Assembly: GCA_030447305.1 (NCBI GenBank)
Contig: JAUJPC010000002.1
Location: forward strand, 252,815 to 316,814
Source of the DNA: Actinomycetota bacterium
GTDB lineage: Bacteria; Actinomycetota; CADDZG01; JAHWKV01
DNA: 64,000 nt
Direction: 5' to 3'
The position numbers and the translations under genes are program-made. Positions 7,343 to 13,272 of the stretch are shown one piece after another. Positions within the stretch are counted from its first letter, which is position 1, and every line of letters begins with the position of its first letter. Under the pieces are notes generated by a model that was given only the letters and a program-made list of their open reading frames with translations, was not told the DNA's origin and did not search any database.

Positions 7343-9115
7343 CTACCCGGAGCCCCGGACGTATATCAGGGACGCCGACGGGACGTCCTCCATGAGCTGG
7401 CGGGCCAGCTCACTTTCATAGGTCGTTACCACAACCTGACGAAGACCGCCGGTCGAAGAGGCCCGTGCCAGCGTCCCGGCCACCACCCTCCTCAGCCGGG
7501 GGTCCAGGTGCTCCAGGGGCTCGTCCAGCCAGACGAACGGTGCATTGGTCGAGGCGCTGGTGACCAGAAGTCTGGTCAGCAGCAGCGCCCACACCTTTTC
7601 CCCGCCGCTAAGGGACCGGAAGGGCAGCACTCTGGTGCCCATCTGCCGGGTTACGTCGCCCTGAGGGCTGAGCCGCAGACCTTCGGCGCCGAAGATAAGC
7701 TTCCATCGCCTGGCGACCTCGTCGACCAGCGGCTCGATCTGTTCCTTCGTGATGGCGTCCGCCGTTGCCCGGAATGCATCTCCGGCCACCCGGGACACCG
7801 CCTCCTGGCGAAGCAGCGCAAGGATCTCGGTCGTCTGCCTCTGTGACTCCTCAAGCTCCGCCATCCGCGCCTCTGAGATTTTCTTGCCGGCCGCCAGCTC
7901 CGCCGTGAGCCGGTCCAGCTCCTGTACCCGGCTGCGCGCCTCTTCGTAGTCGAGCCTTGCCGCTTCGACTGCATCGGGTGACATCACCTCCCCCGGCGGG
8001 AGTACGGCCGCCGGCAGGGCTCGTATCTCAGAGAGGATCTCCCGAACCGCGGTCAGCTCAGATCGCCTGCTCCCGGCAAGAGCACCGGCGGATTCCAACT
8101 GAGTCCGCAGCTGCGCCAGGCGCTCGGAGTGCTGGCTCATCGCGGCATCCGAGTCGTGTTCGGAGAGAGGCCGAAGACAGGTCGGACAGACGGCGCCGGC
8201 TCCCTTCAGCTGATCCTGCGCCTCCCGGGTGAGGGTGAGCTGCGCGTCGGCTGCGGCCAGCTGGCTCATCGCAGATGACAGCTCCTCCTGAAGAGTCTCC
8301 TCGGCCGAGCTCAGCGCCTCCGGAAGGGCCGCGGCGGGCGTCGTGCCGGGCAAGAAGGCCCTCGCTTTTTCGGCCAGCTGCTCCAAGGCGGCCTCCCGCT
8401 CTGCCAGAGTGGACCGGTAGCGAGCCCACTCCTCGGCCAAGCGCCTCCGTTCGTCGGCGGAGTTCATCTCCTCCAATGCTACCCTGCGGCTCTCGGCCGT
8501 GCCGGCCAGCTGTTCGTCCACCCACGCGACCGCCGCGGCGAGCTTGTCCCCCTCTGCTTTGTCTACCTTCTGACCGGCTTTCAGCTTGCGAGCGGCCGAG
8601 GCCGTCTCACTCCCCAGCTTGTCGGCAACCTTCGCGGCCTCGAGAAGTGGAGTCACGCCGAAGACGCTCGCCAGATGCTCTCGCAGCTTGAACTCTCCGT
8701 GGGAGCTCTCCAGGCCGCCGTGGGCCAGAAAGGTCAGCCGGGCCAGCACCTGCAGGTCACCCCCCAGCTCGCCGGCGATGAGCGAACGGAGCTCGGTCTG
8801 GTCGGCGATCACCCGGTCGCCCAGCCGCGCATCGAGCTTGGTCTGTCCCTTCCGGTTGACCGTCCTGCCGATGGTGATGTTGCCGGACTTCGGGAGTCTT
8901 AAGACCACCTCTACGCCGGCCGACTGGGAGTCGCCTCTGATCTCCTCGGTGGCCTCCACCCCTGAGGCCTCCCCGAACACGCCCCAGGCCGCGGCCAGGA
9001 CCAGCGACGTCTTTCCGACTCCGTTCGACGCCACGATGAAGGTGGTCCCGGGCCCCAGCTCCAGGTCGAGGCTCTCGTACGCGCGCCAGTTGCGCAGGCG
9101 CAGCTGAAGGATCAC
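7343..9115 (-). CDS. Rad50/SbcC-like SMC-type ATPase with zinc-hook motif
   Basis: A 590-residue ABC-class ATPase with split nucleotide-binding halves around a coiled coil. The N-terminal half starts ILQLRLRNWRAYESLDLELG and has a Walker A ASNGVGKT (Lys35). A CPTC hook (Cys310, Cys313) sits in the middle of the Glu/Ala-rich coiled coil, as in Rad50/SbcC zinc hooks. The C-terminal half has LSGGEKVWALLLTRLL (signature) and FVWLDEPLEHLD (Walker B). At 590 residues it is much shorter than classical SbcC (about 1,000). The GTG at 9115 overlaps the upstream stop (GTGA), which strongly favours this start. No SbcD-type nuclease gene is adjacent; the coupled neighbours are an unknown protein and a sigma-like factor. 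A role in DNA end sensing is inference. Confidence 0.88.
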   Translation of the reverse strand: MILQLRLRNWRAYESLDLELGPGTTFIVASNGVGKTSLVLAAAWGVFGEASGVEATEEIRGDSQSAGVEVVLRLPKSGNITIGRTVNRKGQTKLDARLGDRVIADQTELRSLIAGELGGDLQVLARLTFLAHGGLESSHGEFKLREHLASVFGVTPLLEAAKVADKLGSETASAARKLKAGQKVDKAEGDKLAAAVAWVDEQLAGTAESRRVALEEMNSADERRRLAEEWARYRSTLAEREAALEQLAEKARAFLPGTTPAAALPEALSSAEETLQEELSSAMSQLAAADAQLTLTREAQDQLKGAGAVCPTCLRPLSEHDSDAAMSQHSERLAQLRTQLESAGALAGSRRSELTAVREILSEIRALPAAVLPPGEVMSPDAVEAARLDYEEARSRVQELDRLTAELAAGKKISEARMAELEESQRQTTEILALLRQEAVSRVAGDAFRATADAITKEQIEPLVDEVARRWKLIFGAEGLRLSPQGDVTRQMGTRVLPFRSLSGGEKVWALLLTRLLVTSASTNAPFVWLDEPLEHLDPRLRRVVAGTLARASSTGGLRQVVVTTYESELARQLMEDVPSASLIYVRGSG

Positions 9116-10035
9116 TGGGGGCCGGCCAGCTGTCGGAGTTGTGCCTCGACGTCCGCGGGAGAACGGCGCCCTTCGTAAAGCCCGATGGCCATCTGAGCCA
9201 ATGCGACTGTTTCCGCTTCCCCGAGACTGCTCAGTACTTCCTTCTTCGGATACCGAGCCCGTGTCCCAAGCTCCTTCTGGGTCCCCACCGAGTCCGCCGC
9301 CACCTTCCGGGCCAGCGCCGTCACGTCGATGGAGGAAGCGGTTCCTGCCTCGAAGCGCGGGAGCGCCTCCCACGGGGGGACCAGCTCGCGGAGGAATGCG
9401 GCGAGTGCCTCGCCGTCCGGCTGGACGGGCCGCCGGTACCGGCGGGGCATGACTCCTCCCGCCGGTACCTCAATGCCCGGCGCGCAGTCTTCTGGCTCCA
9501 ACAGGAGCGAGGTTCGATCACTGCAGACCAGGCAGATTGCCGCCGTCTCCGGGAAGGCCCGAAACACCCGGTCCAGACTCTCCAGGTGGGAGCTGACCTT
9601 CTCGAGCTCGAGGGCGGTCGCCACGTCCACCCTCCAGACGCGAACCCTTCCGCCCGGCGTTCCAACGGTCCAGCTTCCGGCCACCGGCAGGCCCGGCAGA
9701 GCGAAACCCACCGGAGCGCTGTCCAAATCCACCGGAGCGCCGGGCGGCAATGAGGCGGCCAGCTCGTTGAGCAGCGCCCTGTCCGGCTCGGAGGTGCTGG
9801 CCTCGGCAAGCTGTTGAGCGGTCCGGACGGTGTCCCGGCTCCCAATCCGGAAGCCCTTGGGGTCGGCGGTTCTGAGAGCGATGCCCTCGGTCAGCTCAAG
9901 AATCCCGATGATCTCCTCCACCTGCGCGCGGAGCTCCGGCGGCAGGGAGCTGAAGTCGGGAGCGGTCCCGCCGAGCTCGGCGTATTCCAGGTACTGGGCG
10001 ACGGCGTGTTGGACCTCATAGTTGGCTTCGCTCAT
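9112..10035 (-). CDS. Unknown protein coupled to sigma-like factor and Rad50-like ATPase
   Basis: A soluble 307-residue protein that I do not recognise. It begins at an ATG overlapping the sigma-like gene's stop (ATGA) and ends overlapping the ATPase start (GTGA), so it is tightly coupled on both sides. The N-terminal 50 residues are acidic and helical (VAQYLEYAELGG, LPPELRAQVEEIIGILEL), followed by a mixed alpha/beta region and a helical C-terminus (ETVALAQMAIGLYEGRRSP). No calcineurin-type phosphoesterase or other nuclease motif is visible. From its position it could be an anti-sigma factor or an ATPase partner, but nothing in the sequence decides between them. Confidence 0.75.
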   Translation of the reverse strand: MSEANYEVQHAVAQYLEYAELGGTAPDFSSLPPELRAQVEEIIGILELTEGIALRTADPKGFRIGSRDTVRTAQQLAEASTSEPDRALLNELAASLPPGAPVDLDSAPVGFALPGLPVAGSWTVGTPGGRVRVWRVDVATALELEKVSSHLESLDRVFRAFPETAAICLVCSDRTSLLLEPEDCAPGIEVPAGGVMPRRYRRPVQPDGEALAAFLRELVPPWEALPRFEAGTASSIDVTALARKVAADSVGTQKELGTRARYPKKEVLSSLGEAETVALAQMAIGLYEGRRSPADVEAQLRQLAGPQ

Positions 10036-10667
10036 GGGGTGGTCCTGCTTGCGGCTTCGGTATTCAGCCGCGCAAGCGCCTCCCCTTCGAGCTCGCTCAG
10101 CGAACCGTGAATCTTGACCACTGCTCCAGCCAGAATCTGGCCGACCCGCTGACCCGACAGGGGCGGGTTGAGCTCTCGTCCAACAGCCGCTCCGCTCTTG
10201 CGGTCGACGCGCACAGCTAAGAAAACCAGCTTCTCCAGCTTGGTGAGCGAGTAGTCGATGGCCTGGGTGATGCCGGCCAGCCTCTGGGCCTCGAAGAACT
10301 CGTCCTCGGCGCTGGCCGTGCTTGGCTGCATCGGCACGACCGGAACCTCGTTGCCCTCGGGGTCGGTCCGGGTGGCGTCGAGGGATGGTCCCAAGCGCCG
10401 GACCTCCGCTCGTTTGAGCGCATCGATAGCTTTGTTGCGGGCCACCCGGCATGCAAACACCGGAAACGGACCGCTGCACCGGAACTGCTGGGCCGCCATG
10501 GAGGCCCAGGCTTCATCGACAACGCTCCAAGGGTCCATTCCCGCTACGACCTCGTAATCCCCTCTCCAGACACGCTGAACCGAAGCCCACATAAGGCGCC
10601 GCAGCCTTTCGTACTCGGTCTGGTCTACTCCGACGGGGAGATCGGGTGCTCCGTGCACTTGATTCAC
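10032..10667 (-). CDS. Sigma-70-like (ECF-type) factor
   Basis: A protein of about 211 residues resembling extracytoplasmic-function sigma factors. The segment DPWSVVDEAWASMAAQ, then FPVFACRVARNKAIDALKRA matches sigma region 2, and a C-terminal helical part (LTKLEKLVFLAVR through GQRVGQILAGAVVKI) fits a diverged region 4. Divergence of region 4 means it may not act as an ordinary sigma factor. The GTG at 10667 is a guess; a GTG at 10658 with weak GGGTGA upstream is equally possible, and the frame is open farther upstream. Its stop overlaps the ATG of the next gene, linking it with the unknown protein and Rad50-like ATPase. Confidence 0.65.
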   Translation of the reverse strand: MNQVHGAPDLPVGVDQTEYERLRRLMWASVQRVWRGDYEVVAGMDPWSVVDEAWASMAAQQFRCSGPFPVFACRVARNKAIDALKRAEVRRLGPSLDATRTDPEGNEVPVVPMQPSTASAEDEFFEAQRLAGITQAIDYSLTKLEKLVFLAVRVDRKSGAAVGRELNPPLSGQRVGQILAGAVVKIHGSLSELEGEALARLNTEAASRTTP

Positions 10668-10746
10668 CCTTTGATCGTTATCGAAATACTGGTCGGAATC
10701 GAAAAAGGTGCTCCGAGGAGCCACTTTGCGCGGCGGTACCCGAGCT

Positions 10747-11381
10747 TCAGTCGCTTGCGACCTGTCGGGCAATGACCAGGCTGCCTGCCAGCACGAGCAA
10801 GGATCCAGCCGTCTGGAAGGGACCAAAGATAAAGCCGGCAATGCCGATCAGCGGGCCCCCTAAGGCAAGGCCGATTCCCGCCCAAGTTGGTATGCGCCCG
10901 GACGCCGCTGCCGACCATCCCAGAAGAATAAATGCCGCGGAGAAAAGCAGAACTCCCGTGCCCGCGAGCCCCAGGACGGGAGCTCTGTATATCTCGCTGT
11001 ACAGCGCCTGAGCAACCGACTCTCCCGCCAGGAAGGCCTTCCCAACGCGGGTTGTGCACCTGCGGCGATGCCGAAGACGGCGGTGATCAGCACGTGGCCG
11101 AGGACACCGGCCACCAGTCCGGCAGCCGCCAGACCCGATCGGTGGGTACCGGCAAGGAAGGCGGCCAAGGCAGCCATGCCCAGGATGCCGAATGCTGCGC
11201 CGGTGATGCTTCCAAAGATGTGGCTGAGCAGAAATACCCGGGTTGTGACGTAACGGCTCCAGCTTTCGAACTGCGTGGTGGGGTCGGGCTGGTGCGTGAG
11301 CGTGGCAAGGAGGGTGAGGAGTCCGTACACAGGGAGAGTCCAGATCCCGGCGCGCACCCACCGACCCAGGGTGTCCACCAA
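10747..11381 (-). pseudogene. Multi-pass membrane protein gene broken by a 1-base frameshift
   Basis: Two overlapping frames together make one membrane protein of about 211 residues. The first part starts MVDTLGRWVRAGIWTLPVYG and runs through several hydrophobic helices to AAGAQPAL; the second part continues in another frame from GKAFLAGESVAQALY to LVIARQVASD, again with clear transmembrane helices. The switch falls at the GGG run on the minus strand at 11041-11043, where one extra G would restore a single frame. Past that point the first frame becomes charged low-quality sequence. The start (TTG at 11381 or GTG at 11378) lies just after the ABC transporter stop. Either a recent null mutation or a sequencing/assembly error. 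Confidence 0.75.
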
Positions 11382-11382
11382 C

Positions 11383-13272
11383 TCAAGCCACCTCGGGCGT
11401 GTCGGCCTGCTGTTTGGGTGTGAACTGCGTCTCGTAAAGCTCGGCGTAGCGACCGTGCCGGGCCAGCAAAGCCTCGTGGGTACCCCGCTCCTCTATCCGG
11501 CCATCCTCCATCACCAGGATCAGGTCGGCGTTGCGTATGGTGGAGAGGCGGTGGGCAATCACCAGAGCGGTCCGGCCGGAGAGCGCAGAGGCCAAGACCT
11601 CTTGGACCGCTGCTTCGGACGTCGAGTCGAGGTGGGCGGTGGCTTCATCGAGAATCACCACCCTCGGGCGGGCAAGAAGCAGGCGAGCGATGGTCAGCCG
11701 CTGCCGCTCCCCTCCGGAGAGCCGGTACCCACGCTCCCCGATGACGGTGTCCAGCTTGTCCGGCAGAGCATCGATCAGATCGGACAGATGAGCCTGCCGG
11801 AGCGCGTCCCACAGCTCCTCCTCCGAGGCGTCCGGCCGGGCGAACAGAAGATTTCCCCGGATGGTGTCGTGGAACAGATGGCCGTCCTGCGTCACCATCC
11901 CCAGAGTCTCCCGTAGGGAGGCAAAGGTCAGGTCCCGGACGTCGACGCCGCCGAGGCGCACCGCGCCTTCGTCCACGTCGTAGAGCCTCGGCGCCAGCAC
12001 CGCAATTGTGGACTTGCCGGCACCGGATGAGCCGACCAGCGCAACCACCTGTCCCGGCTCGACCCGGAAGGAGACGCCCTTGAGCACCTCCTCGCCTCCT
12101 CGGTTATCTAGAACCGCCACTTCCTCCAGCGAGGCGAGCGATACCTTATCGGCGGACGGATAGGCGAACCGGACGTTGTCGAACTCCAGAGAAACCGGAC
12201 CGTCGGGAACCGTGACCGCGTCGGGCTTCTCGGTGATGAAGGGCTTCACGTCGAGAACCTCGAACACCCGCTCGAAGCTGACCATCGCGGCCATGATGTC
12301 AACCCGGGCGCTGGCCAGGCCGGTCAGGGGACCGTAGAGCCGGGTCAGCAACAGGGCCAGCGTCACCACCCTGCCGGCATCCAGGCCGCCGCGTAGGGCA
12401 AGCAGGCCGCCCAACCCGTAAACCAGCGCGAGCGCCAGCGCCGATACGAGGCTCAGGGCACTCAGGAATACCCACTGGGCCATGGCGGTCTTGATGCCGA
12501 TGTCGCGCACCCTCGTTGCCCGGTCGCCGAACTCCTTTGCCTCGGTCGCCGGCCGTCCGAAGAGCTTGACGAGGGTGGCGCCGGGAGCCGAGAACCGCTC
12601 GGTCATCTGGGTGGTCATCGCCGAGTTATGATCGGCCGCCTCACGCTCCAGGCCGGCAATCCGCTTTCCGAAGCGGCGAGCCGGAATCACGAAAACGGGG
12701 AGAAGGATGAGCGCCAGCGCGGTGATCTGCCAGGAGAGCCGCAGCATGACCACCAGGGTCAGAACCAGAGAGATGGCGTTGCTCACCACGGCCGACAGGG
12801 TCCAGGTGAACGCCTGCTGGGCACCGATGACATCGTTGTTCAGCCGGCTCACCAGCGCCCCGGTTCTGGTTCGGGTGAAGAATGCCAGAGGCATCTGCTG
12901 TACGTGTTTGAAGACCGCCTGGCGCAGGTCCAGGATCAGTCCCTCGCCTATCTGGGCCGACTGCTTGCGGCTGGCGATCCCTATGACGGCATCCAGGACC
13001 GCCAGCACGGCGATCACCACTGTGAGGGTGACCACGGTGCCGACGCTCCCGCCCTCCACTATGGCGTCGACCACCCGCCCGGCCAGCACCGGCGTCGCCA
13101 CCGTGAGCACGGCTGCTATGGTGCTGAGGATCACGAAGATGGTGAGCTTGCGACGATGCGGCCGGGCAAACTCGCCCACTCGCCGAAGAGTGGCGCGGCT
13201 GACGTTCTTTTGCGCCCGTTCGGCCTTCATGGCGCTGTCCAGGGCCATCCAGCCGGTCATGTCGACGTCCAT
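11383..13272 (-). CDS. ABC exporter, fused permease and ATPase
   Basis: A 629-residue half-transporter of the MsbA/lipid-drug exporter type that should work as a dimer in the membrane. Residues about 40-340 carry the six-helix transmembrane domain; the ATPase domain has Walker A LVGSSGAGKST, signature LSGGERQRLTIARLLLARP, Walker B VVILDEA and the H-loop VIAHRLSTI. An insert rich in charged residues precedes the ATPase. The ATG at 13272 is preceded by AAAGGTGA at 5 bases. The frameshifted membrane gene follows at once, so the two are likely one transcript. Substrate cannot be deduced. Confidence 0.92.
   Translation of the reverse strand: MDVDMTGWMALDSAMKAERAQKNVSRATLRRVGEFARPHRRKLTIFVILSTIAAVLTVATPVLAGRVVDAIVEGGSVGTVVTLTVVIAVLAVLDAVIGIASRKQSAQIGEGLILDLRQAVFKHVQQMPLAFFTRTRTGALVSRLNNDVIGAQQAFTWTLSAVVSNAISLVLTLVVMLRLSWQITALALILLPVFVIPARRFGKRIAGLEREAADHNSAMTTQMTERFSAPGATLVKLFGRPATEAKEFGDRATRVRDIGIKTAMAQWVFLSALSLVSALALALVYGLGGLLALRGGLDAGRVVTLALLLTRLYGPLTGLASARVDIMAAMVSFERVFEVLDVKPFITEKPDAVTVPDGPVSLEFDNVRFAYPSADKVSLASLEEVAVLDNRGGEEVLKGVSFRVEPGQVVALVGSSGAGKSTIAVLAPRLYDVDEGAVRLGGVDVRDLTFASLRETLGMVTQDGHLFHDTIRGNLLFARPDASEEELWDALRQAHLSDLIDALPDKLDTVIGERGYRLSGGERQRLTIARLLLARPRVVILDEATAHLDSTSEAAVQEVLASALSGRTALVIAHRLSTIRNADLILVMEDGRIEERGTHEALLARHGRYAELYETQFTPKQQADTPEVA

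Follow-up and report, generated by a model that had tools for sequence, protein, structure and literature searches.

Introduction

In pairs of an extracytoplasmic function (ECF) sigma factor and its anti-sigma factor, the gene of a sigma2-sigma4 protein overlaps that of its partner and has a bipartite, autoregulatory promoter. The same arrangement, with the promoter as a prediction, is found in a three-gene operon, here called the triplet, on the minus strand of the stretch of DNA analysed in this study (the window, 64,000 nucleotides (nt) of contig JAUJPC010000002.1 from a 2.9-Mb actinobacterial genome). Unlike those pairs, the triplet has a partner that falls in no known anti-sigma family, and its third gene encodes an SMC-like ATPase. 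ECF257 factors are reported to have AAA ATPases nearby and to lack an anti-sigma factor (PMC8999054); this group was set against the triplet by description only.

A second kind of described system is formed by CapH + CapP, CapW/BrxR and CapK + CapS, small damage-responsive units beside Bub, Bil and CBASS operons; among these, CapH + CapP, a pair of a helix-turn-helix (HTH) and an IrrE-type protein, and its relatives are known to control Bub/CBASS operons in response to DNA damage (PMC13373217). In other genomes the triplet holds the same place beside ubiquitin-like cassettes. The Cap units use repressors (HTH, WYL or STAS-wHTH) together with a peptidase or a kinase, whereas the triplet has a sigma factor, a new partner, a Rad50-like ATPase and a link to Ku; the HTH repressor and M78 metallopeptidase that characterise CapH + CapP are absent from it by Pfam, PADLOC and NCBIfam.

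The third gene resembles Rad50/SbcC in its Walker A and B motifs, signature, coiled coil and CxxC hook, but its product has 590 amino acids (aa) rather than about 900-1000, lies far below the Rad50 equivalog cut-offs and has no adjacent SbcD/Mre11. The layout of the first two genes recurs in operons of a sigma factor, an adaptor and an ImmA/IrrE protein (Nocardioides pCHL, a Prescottella equi plasmid and genome G373; G000 is the home genome, G000-G003 are the genus members with the triplet and other G numbers are other genomes). The G373 adaptor has an N-terminal module in common with the triplet, but the adaptors continue differently and the third gene encodes an M78 metallopeptidase, not an ATPase. 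No published description of the sigma, adaptor and ImmA/IrrE operon was found, nor, within an incomplete coverage of the literature, one of a sigma/partner/Rad50-like ATPase unit. As a case of switching by an ECF sigma factor and of control over neighbouring pathways in response to damage, the triplet would be of a known kind, with a new sensor and a new partner.

We propose that the operon is, on balance, a DNA-damage (DNA-end) switch made of a sigma factor, an anti-sigma factor and a Rad50-like sensor. That the unit is a regulator is highly probable in our judgement.

Gene organisation and conservation

The three genes and their junctions are as follows.
10032..10658, minus strand: sigma-like gene (208 aa, GTG start kept in the genus; start placed at 10667 in an earlier note)
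9112..10035, minus strand: middle gene (307 aa), a putative anti-sigma factor or adaptor
7343..9115, minus strand: gene for a short Rad50/SMC-like ATPase with a zinc hook (590 aa)
10032..10035, minus strand: ATGA stop/start overlap of the sigma and middle genes
9112..9115, minus strand: GTGA stop/start overlap of the middle and ATPase genes

The earlier note, made from the window alone, had described a three-gene minus-strand operon joined by ATGA and GTGA overlaps. This is exact: each overlap is of exactly 4 nt, and gene order and overlaps are kept in the orthologues. Its ECF-like label for the first gene agrees with the predicted fold, but its GTG start at 10667 was moved 9 nt inwards to GTG 10658, since G001-G003 begin at an aligned TTG.

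Conservation of the triplet in relatives, on which the note's reading depended, was found across actinobacterial genomes. In the genus, identity is 64-67% for the middle protein, 72-74% for the ATPase and about 80% for the sigma-like protein; two of these relatives are metagenome-assembled genomes. Distant carriers are G010, G007, G042 and G385, with a middle-protein identity of 20-43% in distant lineages, and on the Mycobacterium avium plasmid pP7a the sigma, middle and ATPase genes follow one another in identical order with ATGA overlaps. G475 and G481 also carry the triplet by matches to models built on other carriers (E of about 1e-15 to 1e-17 for sigma, 1e-12 to 1e-16 for the middle protein and 1e-113 for the ATPase). 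Because the middle-protein orthologues, near and distant, keep gene order and overlaps, the triplet is not a chance assembly. The middle protein is rare, being present in 9 of 396 genomes of the phylum, with G373 counted among them by the N-terminal module only. A profile search with alignment A2 recovered only near relatives from genome contigs and nothing from viral contigs.

Downstream of the M. avium triplet are a DEAD/DEAH helicase gene and Tn7-like transposition genes (L056 10949-18673), which suggests that the block is mobile as a whole.

The sigma factor and its promoter in the home genus

The sigma-like protein matched TIGR02937 (sigma70-ECF) at E=4e-6 in NCBIfam and Sigma70_r2 at E=0.005 in Pfam, both under the cut-offs. 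Its AlphaFold2 (AF2) model (pLDDT 73) returned sigma factors throughout the best Foldseek matches in PDB, with SigH, SigL, SigB and AlgU at a probability of ~1.0 and no E-value below 0.001, and the M. avium orthologue carries a sigma-70 family annotation. By its model, the protein has sigma2 and sigma4 domains and the fold of a sigma factor, as expected of an ECF member of the sigma-70 family.

The region upstream of the sigma gene contains a single well-aligned block in G000-G003, TTTCG-N-TT-N4-CC-N6-TCGAT-NN-C, with constant spacing, and the window holds one such site at no more than one mismatch.
10677..10704, minus strand: predicted autoregulatory ECF-type promoter TTTCGATTCCGACCAGTATTTCGATAAC (-35 TTTCG, 16-nt spacer, -10 CGAT)

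A -35 element TTTCG and a -10 element CGAT separated by 16 nt have the geometry of an ECF promoter, and the sigma gene is thus preceded by a predicted autoregulatory bipartite promoter, as is usual for ECF systems. At up to one mismatch the block is found again in the triplet genomes, and no instance of its reversed form is seen. A form relaxed after the Ku sites had been seen, TTTCRNTT-N12-TCGATR, matches exactly at 14 sites in the four genomes with the triplet (3, 4, 4 and 3) and at one in five triplet-less relatives, with none for the reversed pattern. These sites stand upstream of the sigma operon and of Ku in 4/4 genus genomes, and before an orthologous operon of a DrrA-like ATPase and a permease (a DrrAB-type exporter) in at least three of the four (G000, G001 and G003). 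Further targets are an ABC exporter orthologous to the one at 11383-13272 of the window (in G001) and the gene following the ATPase (in G002). The home genome has exactly three sites, at the sigma operon, Ku and the DrrAB-like operon. The Ku genes of G004, G005 and G006, genomes in which the triplet was not found, have no site.

These comparisons argue that Ku very probably lies within the regulon of the sigma factor, which would read TTTCG-type promoters; the sigma identity and the regulon are well supported at the level of sequence. The bipartite site could alternatively be the operator of another regulator, the sigma-like protein being only an HTH partner without sigma activity. The sub-threshold family matches of the window protein would fit this explanation, as would the variable distance from site to start (~20-140 nt). 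However, the spacing fits ECF -35/-10 geometry, the sites point at genes and are nearly absent from triplet-less relatives, the divergent sigma of G042 is accompanied by a different motif and the protein is predicted to fold like a sigma factor, and we consider the operator explanation very improbable.

In G002 (L019 4913-4940, plus strand) and G001 (L104 6692-6719, minus strand), the sigma promoter has beside it another copy of the motif that points the opposite way, with no obvious gene behind it.

Ku and ubiquitin-like genes beside the triplet in other lineages

Outside the genus, the triplet adjoins accessory Ku genes or ubiquitin-like operons. In G385, the fourth place in the operon is taken by a second Ku gene (PF02735, E=4e-47), and a ubiquitin-like gene runs divergently from the operon; in G007 a second Ku gene, after a small Cys-rich open reading frame, is divergent from the triplet. 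With the -10 element changed from CGAT to CGAY after these two loci had been seen, TTTCRRW-N14-CGACW has two matches in the whole G385 genome, both of them the divergent promoters at the triplet, and TTTCAGA-N14-CGAC is in both divergent promoters of G007, which make up two of its four genome-wide matches. For any one 200-nt upstream region, the core pattern has a chance probability of mostly 0.2-1.6%. In G042, another motif, TTCCGGTC-N7-GCAACGTA, is present in the sigma promoter and, facing the other way, in the ubiquitin-like promoter, each time a short way before the start, and this promoter-pair match beats 500 of 500 shuffles. Pairwise matching of promoter windows reached significance for G042 and the home genus and not for G385, G007 and M. 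avium, so the evidence for these last three rests on the fixed-pattern test. The idea of a site at every Ku gene was rejected, as G007, G385, G010 and G042 have none at their main Ku genes.

Ubiquitin-like, E2-like and E1 genes adjoin the triplet in M. avium pP7a, G042, G475 and G481. Multi_ubiq, Prok-E2_E and ThiF are all above the Pfam cut-offs in G481, and the E2-like assignment in the other three was made by eye. In G018, a ubiquitin-like gene follows immediately on the ATPase gene, at the end of a contig. Promoters are shared between the triplet and the adjoining cassette in G042 and partly in M. avium. The home genome has no ubiquitin-like cassette, its predicted targets being Ku and DrrAB.

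A ubiquitin-like cassette in G160 (L071 3146-8159) has an E1 gene seemingly split by an insertion sequence element, with divergent HTH and IrrE-like genes.

Exchange with IrrE/ImmA-type regulators

A search with the E1 protein of M. avium returned ten plasmids, its own included. Eight of the other nine were examined, and all eight have a gene for an M78 (IrrE/ImmA-type) metallopeptidase beside the cassette, usually fused to an HTH; the Pfam check covers six of these plasmids, and for L078 and L082 the assignment relies on the HigA-family annotation that L076 also has. For L076 and L077 the M78 score is below the cut-off and the HE-x-x-H motif is visible. L076-L082 carry cassettes of Multiubiquitin, E2-like and JAB-E1 genes on diverse actinobacterial plasmids, with the M78 peptidase gene beside each, and on Nocardioides pCHL the genes before the ubiquitin-like cassette are those for a sigma factor, an adaptor and an ImmA/IrrE protein. 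As M78/IrrE genes hold the equivalent place on other plasmids, the triplet stands where damage-responsive regulators stand.

Operons of a sigma factor, an adaptor and an ImmA/IrrE metallopeptidase were seen at L075 4819-7054, L057 3788-6000 and L026 6645-8886. These loci are on plasmids and one chromosome of actinobacteria, and at one of them a ubiquitin-like cassette follows the operon. The operons look like a second, peptidase-based sigma switch that is apparently undescribed.

The Rad50-like ATPase

The motifs that the earlier note had listed for the ATPase are all found in the 590-aa window protein.
9005..9025, minus strand: Walker A, NGVGKTS, invariant in six aligned triplet ATPases
8177..8188, minus strand: zinc hook CPTC (residues 310-313), invariant in the same six
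7595..7612, minus strand: ABC signature LSGGEK, with small variation (LSGGEK to FSDGER) in six homologues
7517..7537, minus strand: Walker B, FVWLDEP, running on as DEPLEHLDP, with Walker residues invariant in six homologues

Hook variants are CPVC in the M. avium ATPase and CPIC in G018. In Pfam the protein matched SMC_N (E=4e-13), AAA_23 (E=6e-12) and Rad50_zn_hook (E=1e-4). No SbcD/Mre11 gene was recognised next to the triplet, either in the window or at the other loci that were read, in line with what the note had reported for the window. Judged from these families, it is evenly poised whether the ATPase recognises DNA ends.

In PADLOC, the ATPase matched mad3 (E=3e-20) and LmuB (E=4e-14), and the sigma and middle proteins matched nothing. 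Membership of MADS or Lamassu was dropped, there being no partner genes adjacent. The resemblance to defence ATPases leads to another explanation, in which the triplet is an effector (defence) system: the ATPase and middle protein would act on invading or damaged DNA, the sigma factor would serve mainly self-expression, and Ku and the conjugation cassettes would be co-regulated helpers. The plasmid location beside a ubiquitin-like cassette and a helicase is consistent with this, and the weak Foldseek matches of the middle domain, below significance, include Hjc and restriction-type nucleases. On the other hand, other MADS or Lamassu genes are missing from the neighbourhood, the middle protein has no conserved nuclease motif, the place of the triplet on plasmids is otherwise held by HTH + IrrE-type regulators, and the chromosomal Ku and exporter genes have the same promoter. 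A defence role is unlikely, and a regulatory one is preferred.

The middle protein

By alignments and its AF2 model (pLDDT 75, pTM 0.51), the middle protein consists of an N-terminal helical module of ~60 aa, a central alpha/beta domain and C-terminal helices. As the earlier note had thought, it is unlike known families, with no convincing match in Pfam, NCBIfam, PADLOC or PDB; it is neither an ordinary SbcD nor a member of a known anti-sigma family. Searches of the window protein against phages and plasmids gave no match, and weak matches of the N-terminal module (E ~1e-3) were taken as noise. Foldseek matches to pyrophosphatase/DHH and Hjc folds are below significance and were set aside.

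The N-terminal module is also found in the adaptor of the G373 sigma/HTH/IrrE operon (E=8e-12). The C-terminal half is shared with a G399 protein adjoining a DUF6527-type ubiquitin-like operon, which carries at its N-terminus an anti-sigma-like HxxxCxxC zinc motif (zf-HC2 E=0.016, below the cut-off) and is preceded by a gene with a sigma-like C-terminal HTH, recognised by eye. Across lineages, the middle gene lies downstream of the sigma gene and overlaps it (ATGA), the position expected of an anti-sigma gene. From this position, the module common with the sigma/IrrE operon and the HxxxCxxC homologue, we take the middle protein for a probable anti-sigma factor or adaptor of a new family.

It could instead be a co-activator or scaffold without which the sigma factor would be inactive, with the ATPase loading the sigma complex at DNA ends or moving it along DNA. 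Translational coupling implies a stoichiometric complex, which would suit such a role, as would the lack of a match to known anti-sigma families. The order of sigma then partner and the zf-HC2-like homologue are nevertheless typical of anti-sigma factors, and a co-activator seems to us improbable.

At L074 1-5162, a DUF6527-type ubiquitin-like operon is divergent from a sigma-like gene and from the gene of an HxxxCxxC protein with the C-terminal domain of the middle protein; the locus is cut off by the contig end.

Proposed mechanism

In the proposed switch, the first gene would provide an ECF-type sigma factor and the second an anti-sigma factor or adaptor, with an N-terminal helical module by which it probably holds the sigma factor. 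The third would supply a Rad50-like zinc-hook ATPase, probably recognising DNA ends or aberrant DNA. On binding ATP and DNA, the ATPase would act on the adaptor and the sigma factor would be freed; that engagement of the ATPase frees sigma is pure inference. The freed sigma factor would then direct RNA polymerase to TTTCG-N16-CGAT/C promoters. In the genus, it would act on its own operon in a positive feedback, on Ku for non-homologous end joining and on the DrrAB-type exporter; in other lineages, its targets would be accessory Ku genes or ubiquitin-like conjugation operons.

The suggestion of the earlier note that an ECF-like sigma factor linked to a DNA-end-type ATPase could be a DNA-damage regulator is partly borne out. 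Comparative support is strong and comes from the sigma fold, the predicted autoregulatory promoter shared with Ku and the exporter, the Ku and ubiquitin-like operons that adjoin the triplet elsewhere and the exchange with IrrE/ImmA-type regulators.

Several observations weigh against the switch. The ATPase is tied to DNA ends only by family membership and by the Ku and ubiquitin-like targets. For the middle protein of the window, Pfam and NCBIfam gave no recognised anti-sigma domain (zf-HC2, RskA, RseA or others), and the Foldseek search of its model gave no significant match; the zf-HC2 match of the distant G399 homologue is below the cut-off and its sigma-like neighbour matches no Pfam model. 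As to the promoters, one of the 14 genus sites is without a sensible target, and the CGAY form followed the loci that it describes. G010 has a site of variant spacing before sigma and none before either Ku, G475 and G481 are without such a motif, and the M. avium sigma gene has a near match only.

Neighbouring genes in the window

The triplet is flanked by a DUF427-like gene and a membrane-protein gene. The latter (10747-11381, minus strand), just upstream of the sigma gene, is broken across two frames near 11040, and its apparent G002 orthologue is a single frame of 219 aa; the split is a frameshift or an assembly error.

Implications

What triggers bacterial Ku and end joining, and what triggers ubiquitin-like conjugation operons, are questions that are open or partly answered. 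The broader claim, in which our confidence stands midway, is that the triplet represents a new form of bacterial DNA-break signalling, in which a Rad50-like ATPase would free an ECF sigma factor from a new family of anti-sigma factors to switch on non-homologous end joining and mobile-element ubiquitin-like operons, independently of the LexA/RecA, PafBC, IrrE, WYL and CapK routes. If true, there would be a direct link from a DNA-end-type ATPase to a sigma factor whose regulon is small and readable, with three sites in the home genome, and bacteria would have a new way to sense broken DNA, through sigma release. The triplet is also a new marker for locating ubiquitin-like and end-joining operons.

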